Shown here: piece after piece, positions 4,059 through 26,102 of the stretch
Layout of the letters: each line of letters begins with the position of its first letter
Position numbering within the stretch: the stretch's first letter is position 1
Source of the DNA: a virus
Length of the DNA stretch: 26,102 nucleotides
IMG/VR virus record: IMGVR_UViG_3300034403_000255
Coordinates: 1-26,102 of that record
Strand: one strand, 5' to 3'
Translations under genes and position numbers: made by a program
Notes under the pieces: model-generated
The model's input: the letters and a program-made list of their open reading frames with translations, nothing else
Databases searched by the model: none
What the model was told of the DNA's origin: nothing

Positions 4059-6161
4059 ATGGTCATATTTGACATAGAAGCAAATGGTCTTTTAGATACT
4101 TTAACCCACATGTGGTGTGCAGTGACTCACGATTTAGAGTCAGGAGAGACGAAGATTTTCTCTGATTATTCTGAGGAGATACTCGACGGAGACATTAACG
4201 AGTTTGTTGATTATTTATATTCACAACCAGAGATTTGTGGACATAACATAATCGCTTATGATTTACCAGCTATTGAGCAAGTGACTGGTCGTGAGTATGA
4301 AGGAGAAGTTGTGGACACATTATTGCTTTCAAAGCTCTTACATTTCACACGCATACAACCTAAAGGTGCTTCCAGTCGTCATTCACTTGATGCTTGGGGT
4401 ATTCGATTAGGTGTTTCTAAGCCTAAGCAAGAGCAATGGTTGGTCTGGGAAGAAGCTATGCTTAATCGATGTAAAGAAGATGTACGAATTAATGTATTAA
4501 CTTACGAGAAATTAATGAAAGAGAAATCTTTCCAACCAGGAATTGACAAATGTATCAAACTGGAGCACAAAGTTGCTCAGATATCACGTGAACAAGTTGT
4601 GAATGGTTGGTTGCTCGATAAGGATAAGCTTCAAGAAAATCTTGATTATTTAGATGAAGAGATTGAGAGATTGCGTTCACACATCGAGCCACAGATACCT
4701 TCGGTAGTTAAACAAAAAGATCCTAAAATGACTTGGACGGATATGAATAAGGTCATGAAGGAATATGACATGGGTTGGAAAAAAGTACCTATCACTCGAA
4801 TGGATCATTTAGGTAAGCCTATTAAAAAGACATTTAAGCCAATTAAAGCTAGGATACTTAAATCAGGTTATTATGATAGATGGACTTCTTTGTGGTTCGG
4901 CATCACTCCAGAGAGTGCTATAGGAGATCGTTTAGTCATCGGTCCATATACTCGTATCGAGTTTGTCAAAGTCAAGTTATCTCAACATGCTCTAGTAAAA
5001 GAGTTCTTATTAAAGCAAGGATGGAAGCCTACACAATGGACATTTAAAAAGGATAGAGATGGTAAAGTCTTGAGAGACGATAAGAACAAACCCATAAATA
5101 ATAGCCCTAAGCTAACTGAAGACAGCTACGACAGTATTAAGGGAGAGATTGGCAATAAGATCTCCCGTTGGGCTACACTTACGCACAGAAGAAATACCTT
5201 ATCTAATCCAAAAGATGATACAAAGGGTTGGCAGAATGTTGTCAGACCTGATGGTCGCTTAGTTTGTGTACCTGATACATTGGGTGCAGCGACTGGTCGG
5301 ATGACGCATAAGAACTTAGTTAATGTTCCTGGAGTTAAGTCTTTATTTGGCAAAGAGATGAGAGAAGTTTTTATTGCTGATAAAGGAAACATACTTGTAG
5401 GAGCTGATGCTGCTGGTGCGCAATTGCGGTTACTCGCAGCTGCTATGGAAGATGAAGAATACGTAGAGTTAGTAGTTGATGGTTCGGAGGAGGACGAAGA
5501 TGGAAAATTTATTGGAACAGACGTGCACACTCAAAATGGTCTGGCTGCTGGTCTCATTGATCCTGCTGATGTCGATTGGCTACGTAATAATAGCAGTGAG
5601 CATCCTAAATATCATATTTACCATGATAGGTTCGTTGGTCGTAGAGGTGCTAGTAAAAATTTTATCTATGGACTCCTCTTTGGTGCAGGAGACGCTAAGA
5701 TGGGTATTTTGGTAAATGGTGGGGCAGCAGAAGGGAAGAGATTAAAAGAATCATTCTTAGCTGGTTTTCCCAAATTGCAGTTACTAGTAGACAAATTAAC
5801 AGAGCAATATAATAGTAGTAAAAAGAAATACAAGGAAGGATTTATACACGGAGCAGACGGAAGAAGGATATACGTAGATTCACCCCATAAAGTACTTAAT
5901 TATCTGCTTCAAGGGAATGAAGCCATATACATGAAGTATGTAATGTGCATGTCAGATCAGCTATTACGGAAGAATAAAATCAGAGCTAAGTTGCTTTGTT
6001 TTTACCATGATGAGTTGAACATGGAAGTACATCCTGAAGACGTAGAGAAAACAGTAAAGATTTTAGCTCATTCTTTCGGAAGAGCTGGAGAAAAACTTGA
6101 TTTCACTTGCCCAATGGCATCTGACCCAAAGGTTGGAAAGAATTGGTATGAAATCCATTAG
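4059..6161 (+). CDS. Family A DNA polymerase with 3'-5' exonuclease domain (T7 gp5-like)
   Basis: A 700-residue replicative polymerase, close to T7 gp5 (704). Exonuclease domain, residues 1-150: FDIE (D5, E7), GHNIIAYD (D68) and R-C-K-E-D at 137-141. The usual Exo III tyrosine is an arginine here. Polymerase domain: TGRMTHKNLVNVPG at 412-425, motif A D450-A-A-G-A-Q455-L-R, O-helix R529, K533, Y537 and F541, and motif C H650-D-E. Two normally invariant partners, the motif A glutamate and the second O-helix tyrosine, are Gln and Phe. Y537 corresponds to T7 Y526. The gene follows an AGGAGGA SD and is flanked by endonuclease I and the ssDNA-binding protein. No helicase/primase is seen in the window. 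Confidence 0.95.
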   Translation: MVIFDIEANGLLDTLTHMWCAVTHDLESGETKIFSDYSEEILDGDINEFVDYLYSQPEICGHNIIAYDLPAIEQVTGREYEGEVVDTLLLSKLLHFTRIQPKGASSRHSLDAWGIRLGVSKPKQEQWLVWEEAMLNRCKEDVRINVLTYEKLMKEKSFQPGIDKCIKLEHKVAQISREQVVNGWLLDKDKLQENLDYLDEEIERLRSHIEPQIPSVVKQKDPKMTWTDMNKVMKEYDMGWKKVPITRMDHLGKPIKKTFKPIKARILKSGYYDRWTSLWFGITPESAIGDRLVIGPYTRIEFVKVKLSQHALVKEFLLKQGWKPTQWTFKKDRDGKVLRDDKNKPINNSPKLTEDSYDSIKGEIGNKISRWATLTHRRNTLSNPKDDTKGWQNVVRPDGRLVCVPDTLGAATGRMTHKNLVNVPGVKSLFGKEMREVFIADKGNILVGADAAGAQLRLLAAAMEDEEYVELVVDGSEEDEDGKFIGTDVHTQNGLAAGLIDPADVDWLRNNSSEHPKYHIYHDRFVGRRGASKNFIYGLLFGAGDAKMGILVNGGAAEGKRLKESFLAGFPKLQLLVDKLTEQYNSSKKKYKEGFIHGADGRRIYVDSPHKVLNYLLQGNEAIYMKYVMCMSDQLLRKNKIRAKLLCFYHDELNMEVHPEDVEKTVKILAHSFGRAGEKLDFTCPMASDPKVGKNWYEIH

Positions 6162-7994: not shown

Positions 7995-8086
7995 TGCCAA
8001 TTGCATTCGGTATAATGTATGTTATACTGGTAGTGGCACTAACTAAAGAGTTACATGATGATGACGACCATAGAAACGGAGATTAA
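7994..8086 (+). CDS. Very small membrane protein, about 30 aa, overlapping the previous stop
   Basis: This frame reads on from the stop of the previous peptide through a TAGTG overlap, using GTG at 7994. A TTG at 7988, after the GGGGG at 7975-7979, would add two residues. The peptide has a hydrophobic segment (P-I-A-F-G-I-M-Y-V-I-L-V-V-A-L) followed by a very acidic tail H-D-D-D-D-H-R-N-G-D. The hydrophobic/acidic design looks protein-like, but the start is not certain. It may instead be the end of a longer frame beginning upstream. No family recognised. Confidence 0.4.
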   Translation: MPIAFGIMYVILVVALTKELHDDDDHRNGD

Positions 8087-8087
8087 T

Positions 8088-8504
8088 ATGATAGAAGGTG
8101 GATGTTTATGCGGAGAAGTACGATATAAGATACACGTACCAGCTCCATTAGCGGTAGGCAACTGCCATTGTGAAACTTGTCAGAAGCAGTCAGGAGCACC
8201 ATATGTGACTGTCATGTTTGTACCTAAACAAGCAATGGTAGTAGAGGGGAATATTTCTTCTTATCAGACTGACGCTGAGTCAGGGAATAAGATGCACAGA
8301 TTCTTTTGTACTAAGTGTAGTGCACCAGTGTTTGGACAAAGTACAGGAACTGACAAGATAAGACCTGTTTTGGTTTCGTCTGTAGATGATAATCGAGATA
8401 TAGTACCGAAAATGAACTTTTGGTTATCTAAGGCTAAGAACTACACACCTATCGATGACAGATTGTTGTCATTTGATGGACAATTTACACACTTCCCAAA
8501 ATAG
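8088..8504 (+). CDS. GFA/CENP-V-fold zinc protein
   Basis: A 138-residue protein of the glutathione-dependent formaldehyde-activating enzyme-like family. The cysteine pattern is complete: G-C-L-C-G-E-V-R at 5-12, C-H-C-E-T-C-Q-K at 26-33 and F-C-T-K-C-S at 73-78, so zinc binding is expected. The family is broad and its enzymatic role is proven for few members. Candidates are glutathione or small-thiol adduct chemistry. The ATG at 8088 follows GGAGA at good spacing; an upstream in-frame ATG at 8055 lies inside the preceding small gene. It is followed 15 bases later by the MazG gene. Confidence 0.85.
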   Translation: MIEGGCLCGEVRYKIHVPAPLAVGNCHCETCQKQSGAPYVTVMFVPKQAMVVEGNISSYQTDAESGNKMHRFFCTKCSAPVFGQSTGTDKIRPVLVSSVDDNRDIVPKMNFWLSKAKNYTPIDDRLLSFDGQFTHFPK

Positions 8505-10794: not shown

Positions 10795-11004
10795 ATGGAT
10801 ATAGAAGACCTTAGAACTACATTTATAATCACACAAGTTGCTGGAGAGAGACTTGCTTATAAGACTTTAAATTTATCAGGAAAAACTAAGTTAAGATTAC
10901 CAAGTGTTGTAGACATGACACGCAGGTACGCAAAGTTATATGACAATGCCATACTTGCATTAAAAGAGGTAGACGCAGAGGGGGAAGAAGATGTCTCCGT
11001 TTAA
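10795..11004 (+). CDS. Hypothetical protein, 69 aa
   Basis: A 69-residue protein beginning four bases after the previous stop, preceded by AAGGAGA. It is mixed-charge and probably mainly helical in the second half (V-V-D-M-T-R-R-Y-A-K-L-Y), with an acidic end. Its last 14 bases overlap the start of the DoxX-like membrane protein. No family recognised. Confidence 0.55.
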   Translation: MDIEDLRTTFIITQVAGERLAYKTLNLSGKTKLRLPSVVDMTRRYAKLYDNAILALKEVDAEGEEDVSV

Positions 11005-11377
11005 AGATTTATTATTATTAACCATAAGGTTCTATTTAACATACGCACTTGCCATTATCCTATTCCCACATATCGGGGTAGACCTTTCAACGATAATCCC
11101 TGAATCGGGAGTATTTCAACCATTGACATTTTTAGAACAATTAGCACCTGCTGTTGTTCTTCTCATGATGTCTCTCGGTATAATGACAAGGGCTGCTGCT
11201 TTGGCTGTAATAGGGTTAGTAGGTTACAGCTTATTTTATACTAAGTTTGGTGTTAATATTTCGGATTTAGAGAGTCCTTTAATATTATCTCTTCTATCAG
11301 GTCTAATTTTAACAGATGGTGCTGGAAGGGTCAGTATTGACGGTAGGCTTAATTCACTTTTTAGTAGGAGTAAATAA
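10991..11377 (+). CDS. DoxX-like four-helix membrane protein
   Basis: A 128-residue inner-membrane protein with hydrophobic segments at about 5-26, 48-64, 66-84 and 95-108. The segment S-L-G-I-M-T-R-A-A-A-L after helix 2 and the C-terminal G-A-G-R-V-S-I-D follow the DoxX pattern (GllTR...GpGrxSLD). DoxX-family proteins are linked to quinone-dependent oxidoreductases or redox stress, but most have no proven role. Its stop TAA overlaps the ATG of the acyl-CoA dehydrogenase by one base, so the two should be translated together. A membrane redox partner for the dehydrogenase is an attractive but unproven idea. Confidence 0.6.
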   Translation: MSPFKDLLLLTIRFYLTYALAIILFPHIGVDLSTIIPESGVFQPLTFLEQLAPAVVLLMMSLGIMTRAAALAVIGLVGYSLFYTKFGVNISDLESPLILSLLSGLILTDGAGRVSIDGRLNSLFSRSK

Positions 11378-13389
11378 TGATTAGAAGTTTTATGAAGATA
11401 ATGAAAAAGATGCTTCCACCTATATCAAAGACAGAGTCTGAAGCATTAGACGCTGGTGACTCATTCATTGAAGCCGAGTTATTCCAAGGAAGACTTGACG
11501 TTAAGGCGTTGATCGACTATCCGATAACTCAGTTGACAGAACGTGAACAGTCTTTTCTTGATAATGAAGTAGAAGAGTTATGTGCGATGGTTGACGATTA
11601 CCAAGTTAACCAAGATAAAGATTTATCTCCAAAGACTTGGGATTATTTAAGAGACAACGGATTTTTCGGATTAGAGATACCTATTGAATATGGAGGAAAG
11701 GGATTTTCCACCAAAGCTCACAGCGACATAATCCAAAAGATTGCCTCTAGATCAGTTACCCTTGGTGTTACCACTATGGTACCGAATAGTATTGGTCCAG
11801 GGAAACTAATTAAAAGATACGGTACACAAGAACAAAAGGATACTTATCTAGAGCCATTAGCTACAGGTAAAGAGTTTCCTTGTTTCGCATTGACAGCGCC
11901 ACACGCTGGTTCCGACGCTGGAGCTATTACCGACACAGGCGTAGTCTTTGAACAGGACGGTGAGTTATTCTTGCGTCTTAACTGGGAGAAGCGTTACATC
12001 ACATTATGTCCAGTAGCTACATTACTTGGTATGGCTTTCAAACTGACTGATCCAGATGGATTAATCGGTGATGAAGTAAACCGTGGAATAACCGTAGCAT
12101 TGGTCTCCTCGGCTCTGGAGGGCGTGACTACAGGACAAAGACATGACCCCTTAGGGTGTGCCTTTATGAACGGTCCAACGTTCGGTAGAGACGTTGTAGT
12201 TCCTCTGTCTAATGTTATCGGTGGCGTAGATTATGTTGGCAAGGGCTGGAAGATGCTCATGGAGAGTTTATCTGAAGGTCGTGGCATTTCTTTGCCTGCC
12301 CTTAGTGTAGCCAACATGAAGCGTAGTTCACGTATCGTTGGAGCATACGCTCGAGTACGTAAACAGTTCAACATTTCAATCGGCAAGTTTGAAGGTATTC
12401 AAGATGGATTAGCTCGTATGGCTGGTAATGCTTACATGTGTGAAGCAGCTAGAGAGTTAGTAGCATCTTCTTTGGATCAAGGCGTTAAGCCTGCTGTGGC
12501 TTCTGCCATCTTAAAGTTTGAAACAACTGAAAGAGGAAGAGATGCTGTAGTAGATTCAATGGATATTATTGGTGGTATTGGTATTATGGAAGGTCCAAAT
12601 AATTTTATGGCTAATTTCTATAAAGCATTACCTATCGGAATCACAGTGGAAGGAGCCAATATTCTGACTCGGAGCTTAATCATGTTCGGTCAAGGTAGTG
12701 TTAGATGTCATCCGCATTTACAAAATGAAATTAGGAGTCTACAAAATGATGATGCAAAACTTTTCACACGTTCTTTATTGGGTCATGGGTCTTATCTTAT
12801 CGGCAATATTGTTCGGGCAGTATTTCACAATCTTACTTTTGGGTATTTTATCCGTACTGCAGGTGATAAGCATTCACGACGATTCTTCAGACGACTGGGA
12901 TTAATCTCAGTAAATTATGCTGTAATGTCTGACTTGGCTTTACTCATTCTGGGTGGTAAGCTGAAACGTAAAGAGCGTATGTCTGGACAGTTTGCTGATG
13001 TTTTAAGTAATATGTTCTTAGCTTCTTGTGCCCTAAAGAGATATGTAAATGAAGGTTGTCGTAAAGATGATTTACCACTACTAAGATGGGCGATGGATGA
13101 TACTCTTCCTACTGCTAATCAAGCAATGTGGGATATTATAACTAAGAAAGACGATATCATAGCAGATGTTGCTAATATCGTAATCAATGATAGTGAGACT
13201 CGAGACAACTTAACTCGGGGAATATATTTAAACCTAGACCCAAATGACTGCACTGGTCGGGTCGAGTATGCCTTTGCAAAGGAGACAGACATATGGAAAG
13301 AACATCATAAAACTTTAATTAGTAAGGAAGATTACACGACACTCACAGAAGAGTCTGTTAAAAATGCTATTAAAGTAGACTATAAGTAG
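11377..13389 (+). CDS. fadE: FadE-type acyl-CoA dehydrogenase
   Basis: A 670-residue protein for the first step of beta-oxidation, acyl-CoA to trans-2-enoyl-CoA with FAD. The FadE-specific core is clear: E-Y-G-G-K-G-F at 104-110, V-P-N-S-I-G-P-G at 135-142, R-Y-G-T-Q-E-Q-K-D at 147-155 and C-F-A-L-T-A-P-H-A-G-S-D-A-G-A-I at 169-184. The long C-terminal region is typical of FadE rather than of small 380-residue acyl-CoA dehydrogenases. E. coli FadE is 814 residues with an N-terminal membrane region; here the N-terminus is much shorter and has no strong transmembrane span. The gene heads the lipid operon, coupled to the DoxX-like gene (TAATG), with AGGAG 6 bases before the ATG. A hairpin follows its stop. 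Confidence 0.93.
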   Translation: MIRSFMKIMKKMLPPISKTESEALDAGDSFIEAELFQGRLDVKALIDYPITQLTEREQSFLDNEVEELCAMVDDYQVNQDKDLSPKTWDYLRDNGFFGLEIPIEYGGKGFSTKAHSDIIQKIASRSVTLGVTTMVPNSIGPGKLIKRYGTQEQKDTYLEPLATGKEFPCFALTAPHAGSDAGAITDTGVVFEQDGELFLRLNWEKRYITLCPVATLLGMAFKLTDPDGLIGDEVNRGITVALVSSALEGVTTGQRHDPLGCAFMNGPTFGRDVVVPLSNVIGGVDYVGKGWKMLMESLSEGRGISLPALSVANMKRSSRIVGAYARVRKQFNISIGKFEGIQDGLARMAGNAYMCEAARELVASSLDQGVKPAVASAILKFETTERGRDAVVDSMDIIGGIGIMEGPNNFMANFYKALPIGITVEGANILTRSLIMFGQGSVRCHPHLQNEIRSLQNDDAKLFTRSLLGHGSYLIGNIVRAVFHNLTFGYFIRTAGDKHSRRFFRRLGLISVNYAVMSDLALLILGGKLKRKERMSGQFADVLSNMFLASCALKRYVNEGCRKDDLPLLRWAMDDTLPTANQAMWDIITKKDDIIADVANIVINDSETRDNLTRGIYLNLDPNDCTGRVEYAFAKETDIWKEHHKTLISKEDYTTLTEESVKNAIKVDYK

Positions 13390-13396
13390 GTACAGA

Positions 13397-13420
13397 GCTG
13401 GGGGAGCATTGTCCCTCAGC
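13397..13420 (+). other. Intercistronic hairpin between fadE-type and acyltransferase/lipase genes
   Basis: A 9-bp stem GCTGGGGGA/TCCCTCAGC (one G-U pair) with loop GCATTG lies 7 bases past the dehydrogenase stop. No T-run follows; the next bases lead into AAAGGAGG for the next gene. It is therefore more likely an mRNA-stabilising or partial-attenuation element than a full terminator. Confidence 0.6.
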
Positions 13421-13441
13421 AACCCTAAAAGGAGGTAGATT

Positions 13442-15283
13442 ATGTATCGTATAAGTAGGATAGGTTTCAGAGTAATGTTTTTCTTTATATCTTTAATGTT
13501 GAGAGTATTTAATTTACATATTAACCTGAAGAATTACAATGATACATTGAAAAGTGGAGACATCTTTTTGTTTAACCATTTCATCAGAGCAGAGACAGCT
13601 CTCCCCCAGTACATTTTATATTGTGCTGATCCAAACATTAAGTGTTACGCTGTAGCCCATGCTTCATTTTTTAAGATATGGTGGCTTGGACCGATTGTGC
13701 GTAAGCTAGGGGCAATCCCCCACAATCACCCTCGATTGATGCATCTCTTGACAGAGAAGTTGTCTGAGGGTTACAAGGTAGTCATATTCCCACAAGGGAG
13801 GATGGTTAAAGATCATGAAGACGTTGATATGAAGACAGGTAGTGCCGTTCTTGCATTAGGTACAGACCTTTACAAGAGACACATACTCCTCAATAAAAAG
13901 GATTATTCTGAAGAGCTTGTAGAGTTTGCCACAAAGCCGACCATAATTGTACCTTGTAACATCTCTTATTACCCTTTAAGAATTACACAAAACCGAGTAT
14001 CTATCTTTGGTAAAAAGGTAGGACTACCATCCACAGCTTTAGAGGAGCTCATCGTAGAAGGGAATATCATATTGAGGGACACAGAAATGAATCTTAACTT
14101 TGGTGTACCTATCACGATTGACAGTCGTCATATCGATGTTAAGAATGTGAAAGATATTCCTTCAGCATTTGAAGTACTCAAACCCCACAGAGAAGAGAGA
14201 TTCAAACTAAAGGATAACTACGAGGAGACTATCTATACTAACTTAACTATTAATCATGGTCATGTATTCAGTGAGATTCTCTTTAATTTCCTTGAGATAG
14301 AAGTCCCTAAAGTTTCCAGATATCAACTTGGGAGTGCCATGGAGATAGCTTGTGAAGACTTGGGAGTAGATTTTTCAGAGAGCCAACTAATAAAATTAAT
14401 TAAGTTAGCTATAGAATGTAATCTAATCTCTGAAGAGGATTACTTTTATATTATTTCGGAGAATCTTATAAAGGAGCAACCTTTTAAATTTGTAAGGATG
14501 AATAACCCATTGAAGGTTTATCGAAATGAATTATCCCCAATGTCTCGTGAGAGAGGTATAATCAAAGAAGCCATACGTGGTTCTCGCAGAGTAAGTAAGA
14601 GAGGTTTCATACTACATCCAGATAATGATAATGGAAGAGCCATAGTGCTCCTTCACGGTCTATTTGCGACAGCTGACCAGTGTAGACCTTTCGCAGAGAG
14701 ATTGAGAGATAAGGGTTATTCTGTTTACGTACCACTTGTTGCTGGTCACGGCACATCTGTCGATGATCTCTCGAAGAAGACTAAAGAAGACTGGTATAAG
14801 TCTGTAGTAGATTGTTTACCGAGGAACACCAAGTTTCACATTATAGGATTTTCCACAGGAGGTCTCATTGCTGCCAAGGTGGCTAAAGAGATGTCTGAGA
14901 AAGTTCTTTCTTTATCTTGTATATGTACCCCACACGAATTTGTCAGTAAGGGTATGGGTTTCATTAAGTTACTAAAGGCTATCCGTTTTCCTAAGTTTTG
15001 GTTTAACGGAGAGAATCCTGACACATACTCTCTGATACCTATTAATACCCTTTGCGAGTTACAGGATTTCGTTTCAGAGTCTAAAGAGACATTTAAAGAC
15101 ATTAATATAAACACACTCATCACGCAAACCACTGGAGACCCTATAGTAGCACCTTCTAGTGGAGAAGCACTTTTAGGTCTTATAGGAGACAATGCCAAGT
15201 TGGTTCCAATAGAAGCAGATGCACATAACATAGAGAGTTCAGAGGACATCATCCTCGATTTCATAGGAGAAACAAATGAGTAA
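13442..15283 (+). CDS. PlsC-like acyltransferase fused to alpha/beta-hydrolase lipase
   Basis: A 613-residue two-enzyme fusion. Residues 1 to about 250 form a lysophospholipid acyltransferase-like domain: a hydrophobic N-terminus (about 8-24), N-H-F-I-R-A-E at 45-51 (the HX4D motif with Glu for Asp) and F-P-Q-G-R-M at 116-121 in place of FPEGTR. A helical linker covers about 250-385. Residues about 395-610 form a monoacylglycerol-lipase/esterase-like hydrolase: L-L-H-G at 403-406, G-F-S-T-G at 469-473 with S471, D566 in T-G-D-P, and H595. It may move acyl groups between glycerolipids and release free fatty acids at the inner membrane. It overlaps the thiolase gene by 8 bases, tying it to beta-oxidation. 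Individual activities are inferred from motifs. Confidence 0.85.
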   Translation: MYRISRIGFRVMFFFISLMLRVFNLHINLKNYNDTLKSGDIFLFNHFIRAETALPQYILYCADPNIKCYAVAHASFFKIWWLGPIVRKLGAIPHNHPRLMHLLTEKLSEGYKVVIFPQGRMVKDHEDVDMKTGSAVLALGTDLYKRHILLNKKDYSEELVEFATKPTIIVPCNISYYPLRITQNRVSIFGKKVGLPSTALEELIVEGNIILRDTEMNLNFGVPITIDSRHIDVKNVKDIPSAFEVLKPHREERFKLKDNYEETIYTNLTINHGHVFSEILFNFLEIEVPKVSRYQLGSAMEIACEDLGVDFSESQLIKLIKLAIECNLISEEDYFYIISENLIKEQPFKFVRMNNPLKVYRNELSPMSRERGIIKEAIRGSRRVSKRGFILHPDNDNGRAIVLLHGLFATADQCRPFAERLRDKGYSVYVPLVAGHGTSVDDLSKKTKEDWYKSVVDCLPRNTKFHIIGFSTGGLIAAKVAKEMSEKVLSLSCICTPHEFVSKGMGFIKLLKAIRFPKFWFNGENPDTYSLIPINTLCELQDFVSESKETFKDININTLITQTTGDPIVAPSSGEALLGLIGDNAKLVPIEADAHNIESSEDIILDFIGETNE

Positions 15284-16487
15284 GAAAGTATATATAGTAG
15301 ACGGAGCCAGAACACCTTTTTTAAGAAATGAAGGAAGACGTGGACCATTTAGTGGTGTAGATCTTGCAGTTCACGCTTCCAAAGCAGTGTTGCAGAAGAG
15401 TGGCATCAGTGTCGATTCCATCGACGAAGTCATTCTTGGATCAGTAATGATTGAGCCTGAAGAAGTTAACCCTGCGAGAGTACTTGGTGTACGTTTAGGA
15501 GTACCTATTACTTCCCCTGCATACACGATACAACGCAACTGCACATCTGGTTTAGACGCCATTGACGCTGCACGTAAAGACATCATGCTTGGCATCCACG
15601 ACATAGTTCTTTGTGGTGGAACTGAAGCGATGTCCAGAGCAGCATTACAGTACCGTCCTGCAGCATCTGATTGGTTTTCGAAGATGCCTAAGATGAAGAC
15701 TTTACCATCGAAGATTAAACATTTGTTAAAAGTCCCTTTTAGTACATTTTTCAATCCCACTATAGCATTATTGGAGGGATTAAAAGATCCATTCCATAAA
15801 GTACTCATGGGTGTAACGGCAGAGAATGTTGCTAATAAAGCTGGTATTGACCGTAAAGATATGGACAAGTATTCAGTGCGCAGCCACGAGCGTTCATTAT
15901 CTGCAAATTTCGATGATGAGATTTACCCTTTATACGACAGTCGTGGGTTTCTTTATGACACAGACACTGGAGTTCGTAAAGGTCTTACTATTGAGAAGAT
16001 TGGTAAGATGAGATCAGCATTTGTACCTAACGGTAACGTAACTGCTGCAAACAGCTCACAGATCACAGACGGATCTGCTATGTTGATCTTGGCTAGCGAA
16101 GAGTATGTTAAGATGTATAACATAAAGCCTATAGCTGAGATTATCGACATACAATGGTCTGGTGTCGACCCAATGTCTATGGGTCTTGGTCCAGTCCCTG
16201 CTATTAAGCAGTTACTTGGCATGAATGAAGTTCAACATTCCGAGATTAAACATGTAGAGATTAACGAAGCATTTGCTGGTCAAGTATTAGCATGCAATGA
16301 TCAACTTGGATTCGATGAAACTATTCTTAACCCACATGGTGGAGCTGTAGCCGTAGGTCACCCTATTGGTGCTTCTCTCGCCCGATTAACATTACATGCA
16401 GCTTTAAACATTGACGGTTACGCTATCGCTTCTGGTTGCGTTGGTGGTGGACAAGGTGGAGCAGTTTTATTAAAGGAGGTTAAATGA
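15276..16487 (+). CDS. fadI: 3-ketoacyl-CoA thiolase (FadI type)
   Basis: A 403-residue thiolase that cleaves 3-ketoacyl-CoA with CoA to acetyl-CoA and a shortened acyl-CoA, the last beta-oxidation step. Visible catalytic parts: Q-R-N-C-T-S-G at 86-92 with nucleophile C89, N-E-A-F-A-G-Q, V-G-H-P-I-G-A-S with H362, and S-G-C-V-G-G-G-Q-G with C388. The long loop after A-E-A-M-S and the pairing with a FadJ-like partner fit FadI-type trifunctional-complex thiolases better than biosynthetic ones. The start overlaps the lipase fusion by 8 bases, and the stop overlaps the next ATG (ATGA), so it is made together with both neighbours. The full length of the family is kept. Confidence 0.93.
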   Translation: MSKKVYIVDGARTPFLRNEGRRGPFSGVDLAVHASKAVLQKSGISVDSIDEVILGSVMIEPEEVNPARVLGVRLGVPITSPAYTIQRNCTSGLDAIDAARKDIMLGIHDIVLCGGTEAMSRAALQYRPAASDWFSKMPKMKTLPSKIKHLLKVPFSTFFNPTIALLEGLKDPFHKVLMGVTAENVANKAGIDRKDMDKYSVRSHERSLSANFDDEIYPLYDSRGFLYDTDTGVRKGLTIEKIGKMRSAFVPNGNVTAANSSQITDGSAMLILASEEYVKMYNIKPIAEIIDIQWSGVDPMSMGLGPVPAIKQLLGMNEVQHSEIKHVEINEAFAGQVLACNDQLGFDETILNPHGGAVAVGHPIGASLARLTLHAALNIDGYAIASGCVGGGQGGAVLLKEVK

Positions 16488-18388
16488 CTAACTGGGTATT
16501 AGAAGAACATAAAGAAGATGATACTATCAAGATCCTAACTATGGACAAAGAGGATTCATCAGCGAATGTATTGAGTAAAGCTGTATTAACTGAGTTGAGA
16601 ATAATCTTAATGCAACTCAAGTTAAATAAGAGACTTACCAAGCTGATCATCCGTTCTGGGAAGAAGTCTGGATTTATTCTTGGTGCTGACGTCACCGAGT
16701 TTGATGAAGTTACAGGAACTGATGCGATCAACTTTGTATCTAAGAACCATGAGACTCTTCGGATGATTAAAGATCTACCGTTCACGACTATGTGTCTTAT
16801 CGAGGGTTTTGCTCTTGGTGGTGGTACTGAGTTAGCTTTAATGTGTGATTACATCATTGCTGCTGATACTAAGAATACTCGTATCGGATTGCCAGAGATT
16901 CAGTTAGGCATCTTTCCTGGATATGGTGGTTTGTACAATACGATAAAGCGTATGGGAGATTTCAATGCACTTAATTTTATTTTAAGTGGTAAGCCCATGC
17001 CTGCTAAGGTGGCGCTAAAGCAAGGTCTCGTTGATCAAGTGGTTATGCCTTCTGGGTTACTGCAAGCAGCTGTCAACTTTCAGGAGTTTGTAAAGAGACC
17101 TAAAGGTCGTATCCTCGGATCGAAAAGTAGAGCATTCTTAGCTACCGTTCTTCGTAAAGGGGTTGAGAAGAAAGCAGACCCACGCTTTTACCCTGCACCT
17201 TATGCACTCATCGACCATTGGAAAACCTTTGGTGCTGATGAGAACGTAGAGAAAGATTCAGTAGCTGTCCAGAAGTTGTTCGATTCTTCTGAAGCTAAAG
17301 GTCTTATGCGTTGTTTCCATTTACAAGACGGTTTGAAGAAGTTACCTTTGCATAACGATTACAACTCTAAGACTAAATTTAAAAGAGTACATGTAGTTGG
17401 AGCTGGCGTTATGGGAGCAGACATTGCTTCTTGGTGTGCCATCAAAGGATTTCAAGTTACATTACATGATATCAACAAAGAAACATTAGGAAGAGCTGTT
17501 AAGAGAACACACGAGACTATGAACAAGATCAAAGCCTTTGATGCTAAAGATCGATTTGTGGCAGATATCTCTGGAGATGGAGCACGTGATGCTGACATCA
17601 TCATTGAAGCAGTGTTGGAAGATGCAGGCATTAAGACTAAAGTTCTCAGACATTTAGAGAGCATTAAGAAGCCTTCAGCTATCTTAGCTACTAATACTTC
17701 TTCCATCATGATTGAGAAGCTACAGACTGGCATGAAACATCCCGAGCATTTGCTTGGTTTGCATTTCTTTAACCCAGTCGCGCAGATGCTTTTAGTTGAG
17801 ATAGTATTACCTGAGAAGTACAATACAAATACCCGAGATCGTCTTGTGGTTTTCACTAAGGCTATTGGCAAGTTGCCTTTACCTGTGAAGAGTCATCCAG
17901 GCTTTCTAGTGAACAGAGTTTTACTTCCATACCTATCTTTAGCCATGAAGTTCGTTGAAGAAGGGTACAGCCCCAAACTGATTGACCAAGCAGCATTAGA
18001 TTTTGGTATGCCTATGGGTCCATTGAAGCTATGTGATACGATAGGTTTAGATATTTGTCTACATGTAAGTGACGTTTTCGAAGAACAACTTGGAGAAGGG
18101 TATGCTGTACCTGAAATATTGAAAGATATGGTTGCAAAAGGTAATATCGGAGCAAAGTCTGGTAAAGGATTTTATCAGAAAGGAAAGCCTGTGAAGTTTC
18201 ATAATGGTACTATTTTAGAGAAAAGAGGTACCAGTGATATTTCAAAGGCATTACATAGTGTATTTATCGAGGAGTGTCGTAAAGTCCTAGATGAAGGGAT
18301 TATTGAAAGTCCTGAGCATTTAGACGCAGGCATCATCTTTGCAACAGGTTTCTGTCCAAGCTCGGGTGGACCAAGTTCTGCATTATGA
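16484..18388 (+). CDS. fadJ: Enoyl-CoA hydratase/3-hydroxyacyl-CoA dehydrogenase (FadJ/FadB type), C-terminally short
   Basis: A 634-residue bifunctional beta-oxidation enzyme. The hydratase half (about 1-200) has G-F-A-L-G-G-G-T-E at 108-116 and G-L-P-E-I-Q-L-G at 135-142, so both catalytic glutamates (E116, E138) are present. The dehydrogenase half (about 298-634) has the NAD motif V-V-G-A-G-V-M-G-A at 304-312, H427 in L-H-F-F-N-P, E439 and K-S-G-K-G-F-Y. E. coli FadB/FadJ are 714-729 residues. This copy stops just after A-T-G-F-C-P-S-S-G-G-P, where the family continues for roughly 50-60 more residues, and a hairpin follows the stop. It is coupled to the thiolase by ATGA. All catalytic residues remain, so activity is plausible. 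Confidence 0.92.
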   Translation: MTNWVLEEHKEDDTIKILTMDKEDSSANVLSKAVLTELRIILMQLKLNKRLTKLIIRSGKKSGFILGADVTEFDEVTGTDAINFVSKNHETLRMIKDLPFTTMCLIEGFALGGGTELALMCDYIIAADTKNTRIGLPEIQLGIFPGYGGLYNTIKRMGDFNALNFILSGKPMPAKVALKQGLVDQVVMPSGLLQAAVNFQEFVKRPKGRILGSKSRAFLATVLRKGVEKKADPRFYPAPYALIDHWKTFGADENVEKDSVAVQKLFDSSEAKGLMRCFHLQDGLKKLPLHNDYNSKTKFKRVHVVGAGVMGADIASWCAIKGFQVTLHDINKETLGRAVKRTHETMNKIKAFDAKDRFVADISGDGARDADIIIEAVLEDAGIKTKVLRHLESIKKPSAILATNTSSIMIEKLQTGMKHPEHLLGLHFFNPVAQMLLVEIVLPEKYNTNTRDRLVVFTKAIGKLPLPVKSHPGFLVNRVLLPYLSLAMKFVEEGYSPKLIDQAALDFGMPMGPLKLCDTIGLDICLHVSDVFEEQLGEGYAVPEILKDMVAKGNIGAKSGKGFYQKGKPVKFHNGTILEKRGTSDISKALHSVFIEECRKVLDEGIIESPEHLDAGIIFATGFCPSSGGPSSAL

Positions 18389-18398
18389 ACACGGAAGA

Positions 18399-18423
18399 GG
18401 GAGCAGTATTTAATACTGTTCCC
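18399..18423 (+). terminator. Hairpin after the beta-oxidation operon
   Basis: An 11-bp stem GGGAGCAGTAT/ATACTGTTCCC (one G-U pair) with a 3-base loop lies 10 bases after the fadJ-type stop. The following bases are CGAAAATAAATT rather than a clean T-run. It may act as a weak or processing-type terminator, or protect the 3' end of the lipid-operon mRNA before ftsH. Confidence 0.5.
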
Positions 18424-18455: not shown

Positions 18456-20231
18456 ATGAAGAAGTCTACAAAGGTTACACTTGTTGTGGTCGTTGTTGCA
18501 ATAATAGCAGCTTTTATTGTAACAAGATCAGCACCAGTCCCTGAGATTACATATGATAATTTCATTGAGATTGTTAAGGACAAGAAAGTAGCAGGAGTCA
18601 CTATTTCAGGGGCTACCATTTCAGGCATTGACGCAGAGAGTAACGAGTTTACTACTGTAAATCCTGGAGACAGTCATTTAATTGATGATCTGTTAGAGAA
18701 TCAAGTACAGATTACAGCAGTTCTTCCTGGGATGTTATCTACATTCTTATGGAGTTTTGGTCCTATTCTCTTATTAGTTGGTGTATGGATTTGGTTCATG
18801 CGCAAACGTGGTGGTGGAGCACCTGTAAAAAGTCTTGATGTAAAACCTAAGACATCTGACGTTAAGTTCGATGATGTTGCTGGCATTGACGACTGTTTAG
18901 CAGACGTACGAGAAGTAACAGACTACTTAAAGAATCCAGAAGCATTCGCTAAGATGGGTGGCATTATGCCTAAAGGCGTACTACTTGCTGGACCTCCAGG
19001 GACTGGTAAAACATTATTAGCACGTGCAATCGCTGGTGAAGCTGACGTACCTTTCTTCAGTTTGTCAGGTTCTGACTTCGTTGAGATGTTTGTTGGTGTT
19101 GGTGCATCACGTGTGAGAGGTTTATTCGAAGCTGCCAAAAAGGTTGAAGGTGGTAAATGTGTAATCTTCATTGATGAGATTGATGCTGTAGGTAAAGCAC
19201 GTAATAACAGTGGTACTGGTGGTAATGATGAAAGAGACCAAACTCTTAACTCTTTGTTAGTCCAAATGGATGGCTTTGAGAAGAACTCTGGTATCTTGAT
19301 TGTTGCAGCGACTAACCGTGTTGACATGCTTGATCAAGCTTTAACTCGTCCAGGTCGTTTTGACCGTCAGATTGATGTAACATTACCTGACTTGAATGGT
19401 CGTGAGAAGATCTTAGCAGTACACGTACGTAATCTTGTTACAGCTGATAGCTTAGTATTAAGAGACGTAGCACGTTCAACTGCTTCTTTCTCTGGTGCTG
19501 ATTTAGCTAACTTGTGTAACGAAGCAGCTTTATTAGCTACACGTGAAGGAAAGACTTCAGTTGACAATGACGCATTCGATCGTGCATTCGACAAGATCAT
19601 CATGGGTTCAGTCCGTGATGTGAATCCAATGAACAGAGCTGAGCAAGAAGCTACTGCTTACCATGAAGCTGGACATGCTATTGTGGGGATTAACTCTCAC
19701 AAACATGATCCTGTTCATAAAGTAAGTATCATGCCTCGTGGTCGTGCATTAGGTGTGACAGTATATTTACCTGAGCGTGATTCATTCGGTCAGAGTCGTG
19801 CACAGTTAGAGGGTCGTTTGGCTACATTGTACGGTGGTCGTTGTGCAGAAGAGTTGTTATACGGTGAAATGGGTACATCTACTGGTGCATCTAATGACAT
19901 GGAAAGAGCAACAGAAATCTGTACTCGTATGGTAACAGAATGGGGTTTTAATTCTTCTATTGGTAAGCTTGTAGTGAGCCAAAAGAGTGATTACGGTATG
20001 TCCCAGTCTGCTGGCAGTACGCAGTTAGAATCTGTAGATAAAGAGATTCGTGATTTGTCTGATCGGACTTACGCGAATGCTATGAAGATCTTAGTTGACA
20101 ACCGTGAAATCTTAGAGAACATGACTAAAGCACTTATTGAATTCGAGACTATCGATAAAGATCAAGTGGCTGAGTTAATGGCTGGTAAAGATTTAGAACC
20201 TCATGTAGTATTGAACCAAGAAGAAGCATAA
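18456..20231 (+). CDS. ftsH: FtsH, ATP-dependent membrane zinc metalloprotease
   Basis: A 591-residue, apparently complete FtsH (E. coli 644). Order: transmembrane helix about 7-22, periplasmic domain about 25-95, second helix about 97-115, then AAA+ module with Walker A G-P-P-G-T-G-K-T (179-186), pore motif F-V-G (212-214), Walker B V-I-F-I-D-E (236-241) and second region of homology with R-P-G-R-F-D-R (298-304). The protease has H-E-A-G-H (403-407) and a third zinc ligand near D481. FtsH forms inner-membrane hexamers that degrade membrane and regulatory proteins, in E. coli including LpxC and phage lambda CII. Arginine codons are mostly CGT, unlike the AGA/AGG-rich kinase and oxygenase genes downstream, suggesting strong expression. 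A hairpin follows. It sits directly after the lipid operon. Confidence 0.96.
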   Translation: MKKSTKVTLVVVVVAIIAAFIVTRSAPVPEITYDNFIEIVKDKKVAGVTISGATISGIDAESNEFTTVNPGDSHLIDDLLENQVQITAVLPGMLSTFLWSFGPILLLVGVWIWFMRKRGGGAPVKSLDVKPKTSDVKFDDVAGIDDCLADVREVTDYLKNPEAFAKMGGIMPKGVLLAGPPGTGKTLLARAIAGEADVPFFSLSGSDFVEMFVGVGASRVRGLFEAAKKVEGGKCVIFIDEIDAVGKARNNSGTGGNDERDQTLNSLLVQMDGFEKNSGILIVAATNRVDMLDQALTRPGRFDRQIDVTLPDLNGREKILAVHVRNLVTADSLVLRDVARSTASFSGADLANLCNEAALLATREGKTSVDNDAFDRAFDKIIMGSVRDVNPMNRAEQEATAYHEAGHAIVGINSHKHDPVHKVSIMPRGRALGVTVYLPERDSFGQSRAQLEGRLATLYGGRCAEELLYGEMGTSTGASNDMERATEICTRMVTEWGFNSSIGKLVVSQKSDYGMSQSAGSTQLESVDKEIRDLSDRTYANAMKILVDNREILENMTKALIEFETIDKDQVAELMAGKDLEPHVVLNQEEA

Positions 20232-24737: not shown

Positions 24738-26102
24738 ATGACGACCCATGTTAACTTAAACGCTCCCGAACTGTACGAACATGCGTTAGCCAGAAGTGAA
24801 GGTGTCCTAGGGACTACTGGTGCTTTAGTGGTGAATACTGGCAAATACACTGGAAGGTCTCCAAACGACAAATTCACAGTGAATGAAGAATCAAGTGCTC
24901 ATAGTGTAGACTGGGGCAAGATAAATAGACCATTTGATAAAGATGCTTTCTATGATTTAGAGAAGAGAGTATTAGATTATTTAGACAGTAAGGGAAATAC
25001 TTACGAACAGAATGTAACAGCTGGCAGTGACATCACTGTCAGAGTAGTAACCGAGAGAGCTTGGCATAGCCTTTTCACACAGAACATGTTTAAGCCTTTA
25101 CAGATAACGGAAGACGAAGAGGAAGAGTTTTCCCCAGACCTCACCATTTTACACGCTCCAGGATTCAAAGCGATACCTGAGAGAGACGGCACAAACTCTG
25201 AAGCATTTGTGATAGTTAACTTTTACAGAAAGTTAGTGATCATTGGTGGAACCGAGTATGCTGGAGAGATTAAGAAAGCTGCGTTTTACTTTATGAACTA
25301 CATATACCCTTTGCAGGGTACGATGACTTTACACGCATCTGCTAATGTAGACCCTGAAGGTAATGGAGCAGTATTCTTTGGTTTATCAGGAACAGGAAAG
25401 ACAACCTTATCTGCTGACACCACAAGAGATTTAGTAGGAGACGATGAGCACGGATGGGACGACAACGGAATATTCAACCTCGAGGGAGGATGTTACGCTA
25501 AAGTAATCGACCTTGACCCTAACAAAGAACCGCTTATACACACTGCTATTAACACTTTCGGAGCAATCCAGGAGAATGTGTGGGTTGACCCTATAACACG
25601 CTCTAGCGACCTCTCCTGCGCTACAATCACTGAGAATACACGTTCTTCTTATCCTTTAGGGCACATACCAAATGCTGTTTCTTCAGGGACGATGGGACAC
25701 CCTAAAGATATTATTATGTTGACATGTGATTCCTTTGGAGTCCTTCCACCGATTTCCCGATTAACTCCTCGACAAGCGATGTTTCATTTCTTATCTGGTT
25801 ACACATCCAAGATAGCAGGAACGGAAGCAGGAGTAACAGAACCTGAAGCAGTCTTCAGTGCTTGTTTCGGTGAGCCTTTTATGGCACTAGATCCAAGAGT
25901 ATATGGAGAGCTACTTAGAAAGAAGATTGAAGAACACGACATTAGATGCTGGTTGCTTAATACTGGTTGGTCTGGTGGCGGATATGGGGTAGGAGCACGT
26001 ATGGATATTGATCATACAAGGACTCTTCTCAACGCAGCATTGGGTGGATACCTTGATGATGTGCCCATGGTTGAACATCCAGTCTTTAACGTGATGATAC
26101 CA
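24738..26102 (+). CDS. pckA: ATP-dependent phosphoenolpyruvate carboxykinase, 3' partial
   Basis: The frame is open for 455 codons to the window edge; the family is about 520-540 residues, so roughly 70-80 are missing off the right side. It converts oxaloacetate plus ATP to PEP, CO2 and ADP, the entry step of gluconeogenesis. Conserved parts seen: T-G-R-S-P-N-D-K near the N-terminus, G-G-T-E-Y-A-G-E-I-K-K, the kinase loop G-L-S-G-T-G-K-T-T-L-S (about 25380-25412), G-D-D-E-H-G-W with the metal Asp, N-L-E-G-G-C-Y-A-K, T-E-N-T-R, F-G-V-L-P-P, S-G-Y-T-S-K-I-A-G-T-E and N-T-G-W-S-G-G-G. No active-site loss is visible. A strong AAAGGAGG precedes the ATG. It follows phage-type genes and a structured leader. 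Confidence 0.95.
   Translation, partial: MTTHVNLNAPELYEHALARSEGVLGTTGALVVNTGKYTGRSPNDKFTVNEESSAHSVDWGKINRPFDKDAFYDLEKRVLDYLDSKGNTYEQNVTAGSDITVRVVTERAWHSLFTQNMFKPLQITEDEEEEFSPDLTILHAPGFKAIPERDGTNSEAFVIVNFYRKLVIIGGTEYAGEIKKAAFYFMNYIYPLQGTMTLHASANVDPEGNGAVFFGLSGTGKTTLSADTTRDLVGDDEHGWDDNGIFNLEGGCYAKVIDLDPNKEPLIHTAINTFGAIQENVWVDPITRSSDLSCATITENTRSSYPLGHIPNAVSSGTMGHPKDIIMLTCDSFGVLPPISRLTPRQAMFHFLSGYTSKIAGTEAGVTEPEAVFSACFGEPFMALDPRVYGELLRKKIEEHDIRCWLLNTGWSGGGYGVGARMDIDHTRTLLNAALGGYLDDVPMVEHPVFNVMIP

Follow-up and report, generated by a model that had tools for sequence, protein, structure and literature searches.

A phage contig encodes the complete fatty-acid beta-oxidation cycle in one compact gene block

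Viral metabolic genes mostly cover single steps of a pathway. Can a phage carry a whole degradative cycle, and what would it do with one? The question is raised by a linear virus sequence of 26,102 bases in IMG/VR (IMGVR_UViG_3300034403_000255), which we refer to as the window. A fatty-acid beta-oxidation operon had been predicted in it at 11377-18388. The four reading frames of this region are open and intact, exactly where they had been placed:

11377-13389, plus strand: FadE-type acyl-CoA dehydrogenase, 670 aa (NF007000, 868 bits against a cut-off of 600; ACDH_C and three acyl-CoA dehydrogenase domains)
13442-15283, plus strand: PlsC-type acyltransferase/alpha-beta hydrolase (lipase-like) fusion, 613 aa (PF01553, 42 bits; PF00561, 49 bits)
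15276-16487, plus strand: FadI/FadA-type 3-ketoacyl-CoA thiolase, 403 aa (TIGR01930, 357 bits against a cut-off of 240.55; Thiolase_N and Thiolase_C, 199 and 116 bits)
16484-18388, plus strand: FadJ/FadB-type enoyl-CoA hydratase/3-hydroxyacyl-CoA dehydrogenase, 634 aa (ECH_1, 103 bits; 3HCDH_N and 3HCDH, 153 and 97 bits)

By their domain matches these proteins cover all four beta-oxidation reactions, one by FadE, two by the FadJ-type protein and one by the thiolase, and alignment located the catalytic residues in every enzyme checked; on both points the original prediction was right. In FadE the catalytic glutamate is Glu425; it matches the EGxN motif of ACAD9 when the two are aligned, and it is invariant in the FadE alignment. 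The thiolase has Cys89, Asn330-Glu331, His362 and Cys388. In the FadJ-type protein, the hydratase residues Glu116 and Glu138 and the dehydrogenase residues His427 and Glu439 are all invariant in the FadJ alignment. We keep the names at the level of type. The phage FadE has a shortened C-terminal region and no N-terminal membrane anchor; since its match to the NF007000/PRK09463 profile ends at position 587 of 726, short of the full-length C terminus, and since its 670 aa fall below the bacterial minimum of 696, we call it FadE-type. Likewise, the hydratase/dehydrogenase is named FadJ-type and is not taken for a FadJ equivalog, because it scores below the curated cut-offs for FadJ (PRK11154, 417 versus 869 bits), FadB (395 versus 870 bits) and the TIGR02440 equivalog (364 versus 968 bits).

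The fusion protein has hydrolase residues Ser471, Asp566 and His595, which are also conserved in 760-aa homologues from T4-like phages, and it shares the motifs NHFxRxET and FPxGxMVKDH with them. Its acyltransferase half carries H-X4-E in place of the PlsC H-X4-D, in the window and in the T4-like phages alike; it is therefore possibly something other than a classical PlsC enzyme. The AlphaFold model of the fusion, with a mean pLDDT of 40, is too poor for judging the motif. None of the window proteins that were scanned with Pfam has the AMP-binding domain of an acyl-CoA ligase.

How tightly are the genes joined? The fusion and thiolase genes overlap by 8 bases (15276-15283), and the thiolase and FadJ genes meet in an ATGA (16484-16487), both as predicted. 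The TAATG that had been counted as a third coupling is not inside the block: it sits upstream of FadE and links it to the gene of a small membrane protein. Between FadE and the fusion there is a gap of 52 nt with its own AAAGGAGG and a hairpin, and another hairpin follows FadJ:

10991-11377, plus strand: small membrane protein, matching no family, translationally coupled to FadE by TAATG
13397-13420, plus strand: RNA hairpin in the FadE-fusion gap (fold -19.9 kcal/mol, z = -2.5; no T-run)
18399-18423, plus strand: RNA hairpin 3' of FadJ, before FtsH (fold -16.7 kcal/mol, z = -3.65; no T-run)

The first hairpin is a possible RNA processing or stability element. The second, which is not among the predicted terminators, is a candidate for the end or a processing site of the block. 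Promoter-like and terminator-like sites in the window show no excess over chance expectation.

The block is embedded in phage genes. To its left lie a T7-like polymerase, a polymerase-type exonuclease, endonuclease I, a gp2.5-like SSB, an exonuclease, MazG and thymidylate synthase, and to its right an FtsH protease, an NT5C-type nucleotidase and a deoxynucleoside kinase. This agrees with the replication genes and nucleotide genes described for the two sides, but the immediate neighbour of FadJ is a full FtsH. Three features of the flanks are needed below:

4059-6161, plus strand: phage family-A DNA polymerase, which marks phage identity (phrog_17, 394 bits)
18456-20231, plus strand: FtsH-type ATP-dependent membrane protease, 591 aa (TIGR01241, 666 bits against a cut-off of 600)
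24738-26102, plus strand: ATP-type phosphoenolpyruvate carboxykinase (PEPCK), truncated by the contig end (PF01293, 642 bits; NF006820, 675 bits against a cut-off of 636)

The closest named phages to the polymerase are 32-34% identical and, where looked up, belong to the Zobellviridae. Capsid and terminase genes are absent from the 26-kb fragment. GC content is homogeneous along the window, and its principal genes all lie on the same strand. Polymerase scans yielded a sole close relative, the sister contig L128, whose polymerase is 70% identical to that of the window. On the left side, L128 has the genes of the window in the same order, GFA included, with 53-70% identity in the core genes, and it stops before the fad region. 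The fad block thus consists of cellular metabolic genes flanked by phage genes on one contig, as auxiliary metabolic genes are defined.

The left part of the window holds further genes of note. A GFA-family (glutathione-dependent formaldehyde-activating-like) gene adjoins the phage exonuclease in both contigs (window 8055-8504; L128 7205-7567). A stand-alone 3'-5' exonuclease-like domain that resembles a DNA polymerase is encoded at 1106-1678 besides the full polymerase and is 65% identical in L128. An agmatinase/arginase-family gene at 1-897, truncated by the left end, is another metabolic gene of this phage.

Where could such a block have come from? The order FadE-thiolase-FadJ is a common proteobacterial arrangement, present in 40 of the loci L001-L088 (nearly all bacterial). 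The fusion belongs to a bacterial family that is nameless in the libraries used; about 20 of the 369 gammaproteobacterial genomes sampled have a member of nearly full length. At one gammaproteobacterial locus (G241/L344, 391-10388), the fusion, FadE, thiolase and FadJ are followed by an AMP-binding acyl-CoA ligase, and flagellar genes adjoin. Like the phage block, this operon holds the four protein families contiguously on one strand. The phage order is FadE-fusion-thiolase-FadJ, whereas L344 reads fusion-FadE-thiolase-FadJ-ligase, so the first two genes are swapped and the ligase is missing in the phage. The phage proteins are also shorter (FadE, 670 versus 807 aa; fusion, 613 versus 771; thiolase, 403 versus 430; FadJ, 634 versus 681) and, unlike those of L344, are surrounded by phage replication and nucleotide genes. 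Since a gammaproteobacterial genome has this operon, the block in the window resembles a catabolic operon that was captured minus its ligase, and L344 points to a beta-oxidation role for the fusion family. Finding the block together with its flanks in a bacterial chromosome had been named as evidence against the original prediction. The four-gene set does occur in a bacterial genome; the phage flanks do not occur there. L344 shows the source of such blocks and does not make the window block bacterial.

Does the block recur in other phages? Scanning viral contigs with the FadJ or FadE protein by itself gave no matches; IMG/VR profile scans returned 24 loci with the FadJ alignment and 15 with the FadE alignment. 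FadE, thiolase and FadJ of the window's type occur together in five records, which include G001 (IMGVR_UViG_3300009703_000019, 61 kb), G006 (IMGVR_UViG_3300013111_000141, 97 kb), G008 (IMGVR_UViG_3300028198_000256, 115 kb) and G011 (IMGVR_UViG_3300035234_000017, 55 kb). G006 has the T4 genes for major head protein, portal, terminase, tail sheath, DNA polymerase, gp46-type nuclease and helicase, and G011 is 94% identical to it across 53 kb. A T4-type polymerase is found in G001, G005, G006 and G008, and gp23 in G005 and G006. The acyltransferase/hydrolase fusion is full length in G006, G008 and G011, and an FtsH 49-52% identical to that of the window is encoded in four fad-bearing viral records (G001, G005, G008 and G009). 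G008 therefore holds FadE, fusion, thiolase, FadJ and FtsH, dispersed and in no single operon. The four named T4-like contigs differ from the window in phage class, in the dispersal of these genes (thiolase and FadJ are paired) and in that all four carry isocitrate lyase. The window's PEPCK has no match in these four contigs, and an acyl-CoA ligase was not found in 32 related viral records. What the search for the four-gene order brought to light is thus the same enzymes in T4-like phages, and not the same single operon. Trees place the T4-like phage proteins of this type in a single supported group and set those of the window apart, alone on long branches among proteobacterial sequences. A common origin of the window and T4-like sets is conceivable: p-AU is 0.088 for FadE and 0.986 for the thiolase, with long branches.

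A second version of the cycle is found in the gp23-bearing, T4-like contig G017 (IMGVR_UViG_3300022920_000504), where a thiolase, a FadB/J-type protein and a VLCAD/ACAD9-type dehydrogenase form a run with gaps of 1-2 nt. All four reactions are encoded in a single tight run, as in the window. Unlike the window, G017 is without the fusion, its dehydrogenase is of the VLCAD/ACAD9 type and its FadB/J-type protein is distant (33%); from these sequences it looks like a separate acquisition. Similar runs are present in four further records. The G017 run (L105, 8752-13929) adjoins malate/lactate dehydrogenase, serine dehydratase and ribonucleotide reductase.

Matches in an annotated phage collection (Acinetobacter phage MD-2021a, many OR84/OR85 records and two Salmonella assemblies) resemble bacterial chromosome and were excluded. 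The CAKLQF/CAKLQH, many OR84/OR85 and AFYI/AGRM "phage" records look bacterial-chromosomal, with fadE, fadB and pckA as housekeeping genes. Such records filed as phages are a trap for surveys of auxiliary metabolic genes.

The company kept by the fad genes bears on their function. Five FadE-bearing records (G001, G006, G008, G011 and G025) encode isocitrate lyase, which scores about 738-753 bits (cut-off 562); the available part of the window has none. Among the other genes of G008 are those for malate dehydrogenase, PEP synthase, ribose-phosphate pyrophosphokinase (PRPP synthetase), alanine dehydrogenase and ribonucleotide reductase; a CitE/malyl-CoA-lyase-like protein is encoded in G001. The window itself has PEPCK, probably as the downstream step from oxaloacetate to PEP. 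pckA genes are present in at least 60 IMG/VR contigs (L354-L413), and within the flanks fetched fad genes accompany none of 60 viral pckA loci. Since the window encodes PEPCK and G008 PEP synthase, two phage classes appear to pair acetyl-CoA production with PEP production through different enzymes. G008 carries an indolepyruvate-decarboxylase-like enzyme as well, and the central-carbon repertoire of the T4-like phages is large (L216-L232).

Our preferred reading, to which we give a probability of about two in three, is that the window carries a genuine phage operon, derived from a gammaproteobacterial-type operon, trimmed and adapted, which boosts the breakdown of host acyl chains to acetyl-CoA and feeds energy and PEP/nucleotides. 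From sequence we infer that the enzymes are active, that they work in the degradative direction, that host lipid supplies the substrate and that the phage benefits. Host phospholipid or storage lipid would be opened by the hydrolase half of the fusion together with host lipases, or fatty acids would come in from outside. With no acyl-CoA ligase found among the scanned window proteins or in the related viral records, free fatty acids would be activated by the host ligase, and the pathway would rely on the host for electron transfer as well. Phage FadE would then produce trans-2-enoyl-CoA and pass electrons to the host electron-transfer flavoprotein and the quinone pool, phage FadJ would hydrate the enoyl-CoA and oxidise the product, giving NADH, and phage thiolase would release acetyl-CoA, after which the next round begins. 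Respiration could take up the acetyl-CoA, NADH and reduced quinone. Acetyl-CoA could also pass through the glyoxylate shunt and oxaloacetate to PEP, by phage PEPCK, and on to sugar phosphates and nucleotides. FtsH may alter the host membrane proteome in parallel. Burning or recycling of host acyl chains, the purpose originally proposed, is a sound reading of the gene content; it is strengthened by the isocitrate lyase, malate dehydrogenase and PEP synthase of T4-like phages and the PEPCK of the window, with the isocitrate lyase/PEP synthase link coming from another phage lineage than the window's.

Could the block remodel lipid instead of burning it? The fusion would then deacylate and reacylate phospholipid or neutral lipid, and the fad enzymes would shorten chains or run partly in reverse, changing the membrane for virion assembly or lysis. 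An acyltransferase domain in mid-operon and a membrane protease directly after the block would suit this, and the thiolase and FadJ reactions are reversible. The FadE class, however, works oxidatively via electron-transfer flavoprotein, and a bacterial relative of the fusion shares its operon with an acyl-CoA ligase, a catabolic setting. Carriers of the gene set also encode glyoxylate-shunt and PEP enzymes, and the H-X4-E motif casts doubt on the acyltransferase half as a classical PlsC enzyme. We regard remodelling as unlikely. We consider it quite improbable that the genes serve chiefly to deplete acyl-CoA as a signal, with carbon gain secondary, whether in order to shift regulation of the FadR type, to halt host membrane growth or for a similar end. 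Long-chain acyl-CoA is indeed a regulatory ligand in Gammaproteobacteria, but one dehydrogenase or thioesterase would be enough for its removal, whereas a full cycle together with carbon-assimilation genes indicates flux.

Codon usage bears on whether the operon belongs to the phage. Synonymous codon use of the block correlates with that of the left phage genes at r = 0.967, closer than the left flank correlates with the right (0.926). For the seven bacterial fadJ genes included in the comparison, the correlation is 0.02-0.78. The fad enzymes are also shorter than the bacterial medians (FadE, 670 versus 804 aa; thiolase, 403 versus 435; FadJ, 634 versus 683). Phages pick up host DNA, and the IMG/VR scans found a single assembly of this phage's block, so the operon might be a recently captured passenger with no selected role; its codon adaptation, the frames and active sites kept intact despite long branches, and the recurrence in other phage lineages make this very improbable. 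Although the four-gene set exists in bacteria and neither single-protein nor profile scans of IMG/VR found a second assembly of the same phage with the fad block, an assembly join of phage and bacterial DNA is hardly credible given the codon use, the overlapping same-strand genes, the short enzymes on long viral branches, the left-flank synteny with L128 and the recurrence of the genes in unrelated phages. A beta-oxidation operon within a phage genome, as originally predicted, is thus backed by composition, codon usage, the left flank of the sister phage and recurrence in T4-like phages.

We return to the phage operon as a device for acyl-chain breakdown. Since the window carries a full, codon-adapted operon and unrelated large phages the same enzyme set, some phages probably exploit the fat of the host, while infecting it, for energy and as building material. 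More tentatively, and with the odds somewhat against it, several unrelated lineages may encode a fat-to-DNA programme, in which the lipase fusion, beta-oxidation and glyoxylate-shunt/PEP enzymes lead to sugar phosphates and the nucleotides of virion genomes. A complete cycle as an operon in a small phage with T7-like replication genes, the same set dispersed over large T4-like genomes and another version in a further contig suggest that host lipid can be worth up to 7 kb of genome. This makes testable a source of energy and nucleotide carbon for phages of poorly fed hosts, and it supplies a concrete gene set for experiments on phage-enhanced fatty-acid use in virocells. In phosphate-starved virocells, host fatty-acid degradation proteins increase (PMC11170926), which fits a demand for this pathway.

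How does the block compare with known viral lipid genes? The literature searched, which included few subscription papers or bioRxiv preprints, yielded no account of a phage with a complete beta-oxidation operon. Fatty-acid biosynthesis is among the targeted pathways listed in a global ocean survey of auxiliary metabolic genes (PMC11360552), in whose main text neither "acyl-CoA" nor "thiolase" occurs. Giant viruses resemble the window in encoding an acyl-CoA dehydrogenase and a lipase; unlike the window they are without hydratase and thiolase, neither of which was detected in any of them according to a review (PMC9270025). Single lipid-related viral genes were already known, as originally stated: fadB and fadL in the Pacific Ocean Virome (Hurwitz 2013, PMC4053976), where fadB is missing from the genes validated by contig linkage, and fadJ and fadD in phages of polyhydroxyalkanoate cultures (PMC12013262). 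These genes are single, forming neither a complete cycle nor a reported operon, in contrast to the window, whose block is a set of auxiliary metabolic genes unusual in its completeness.
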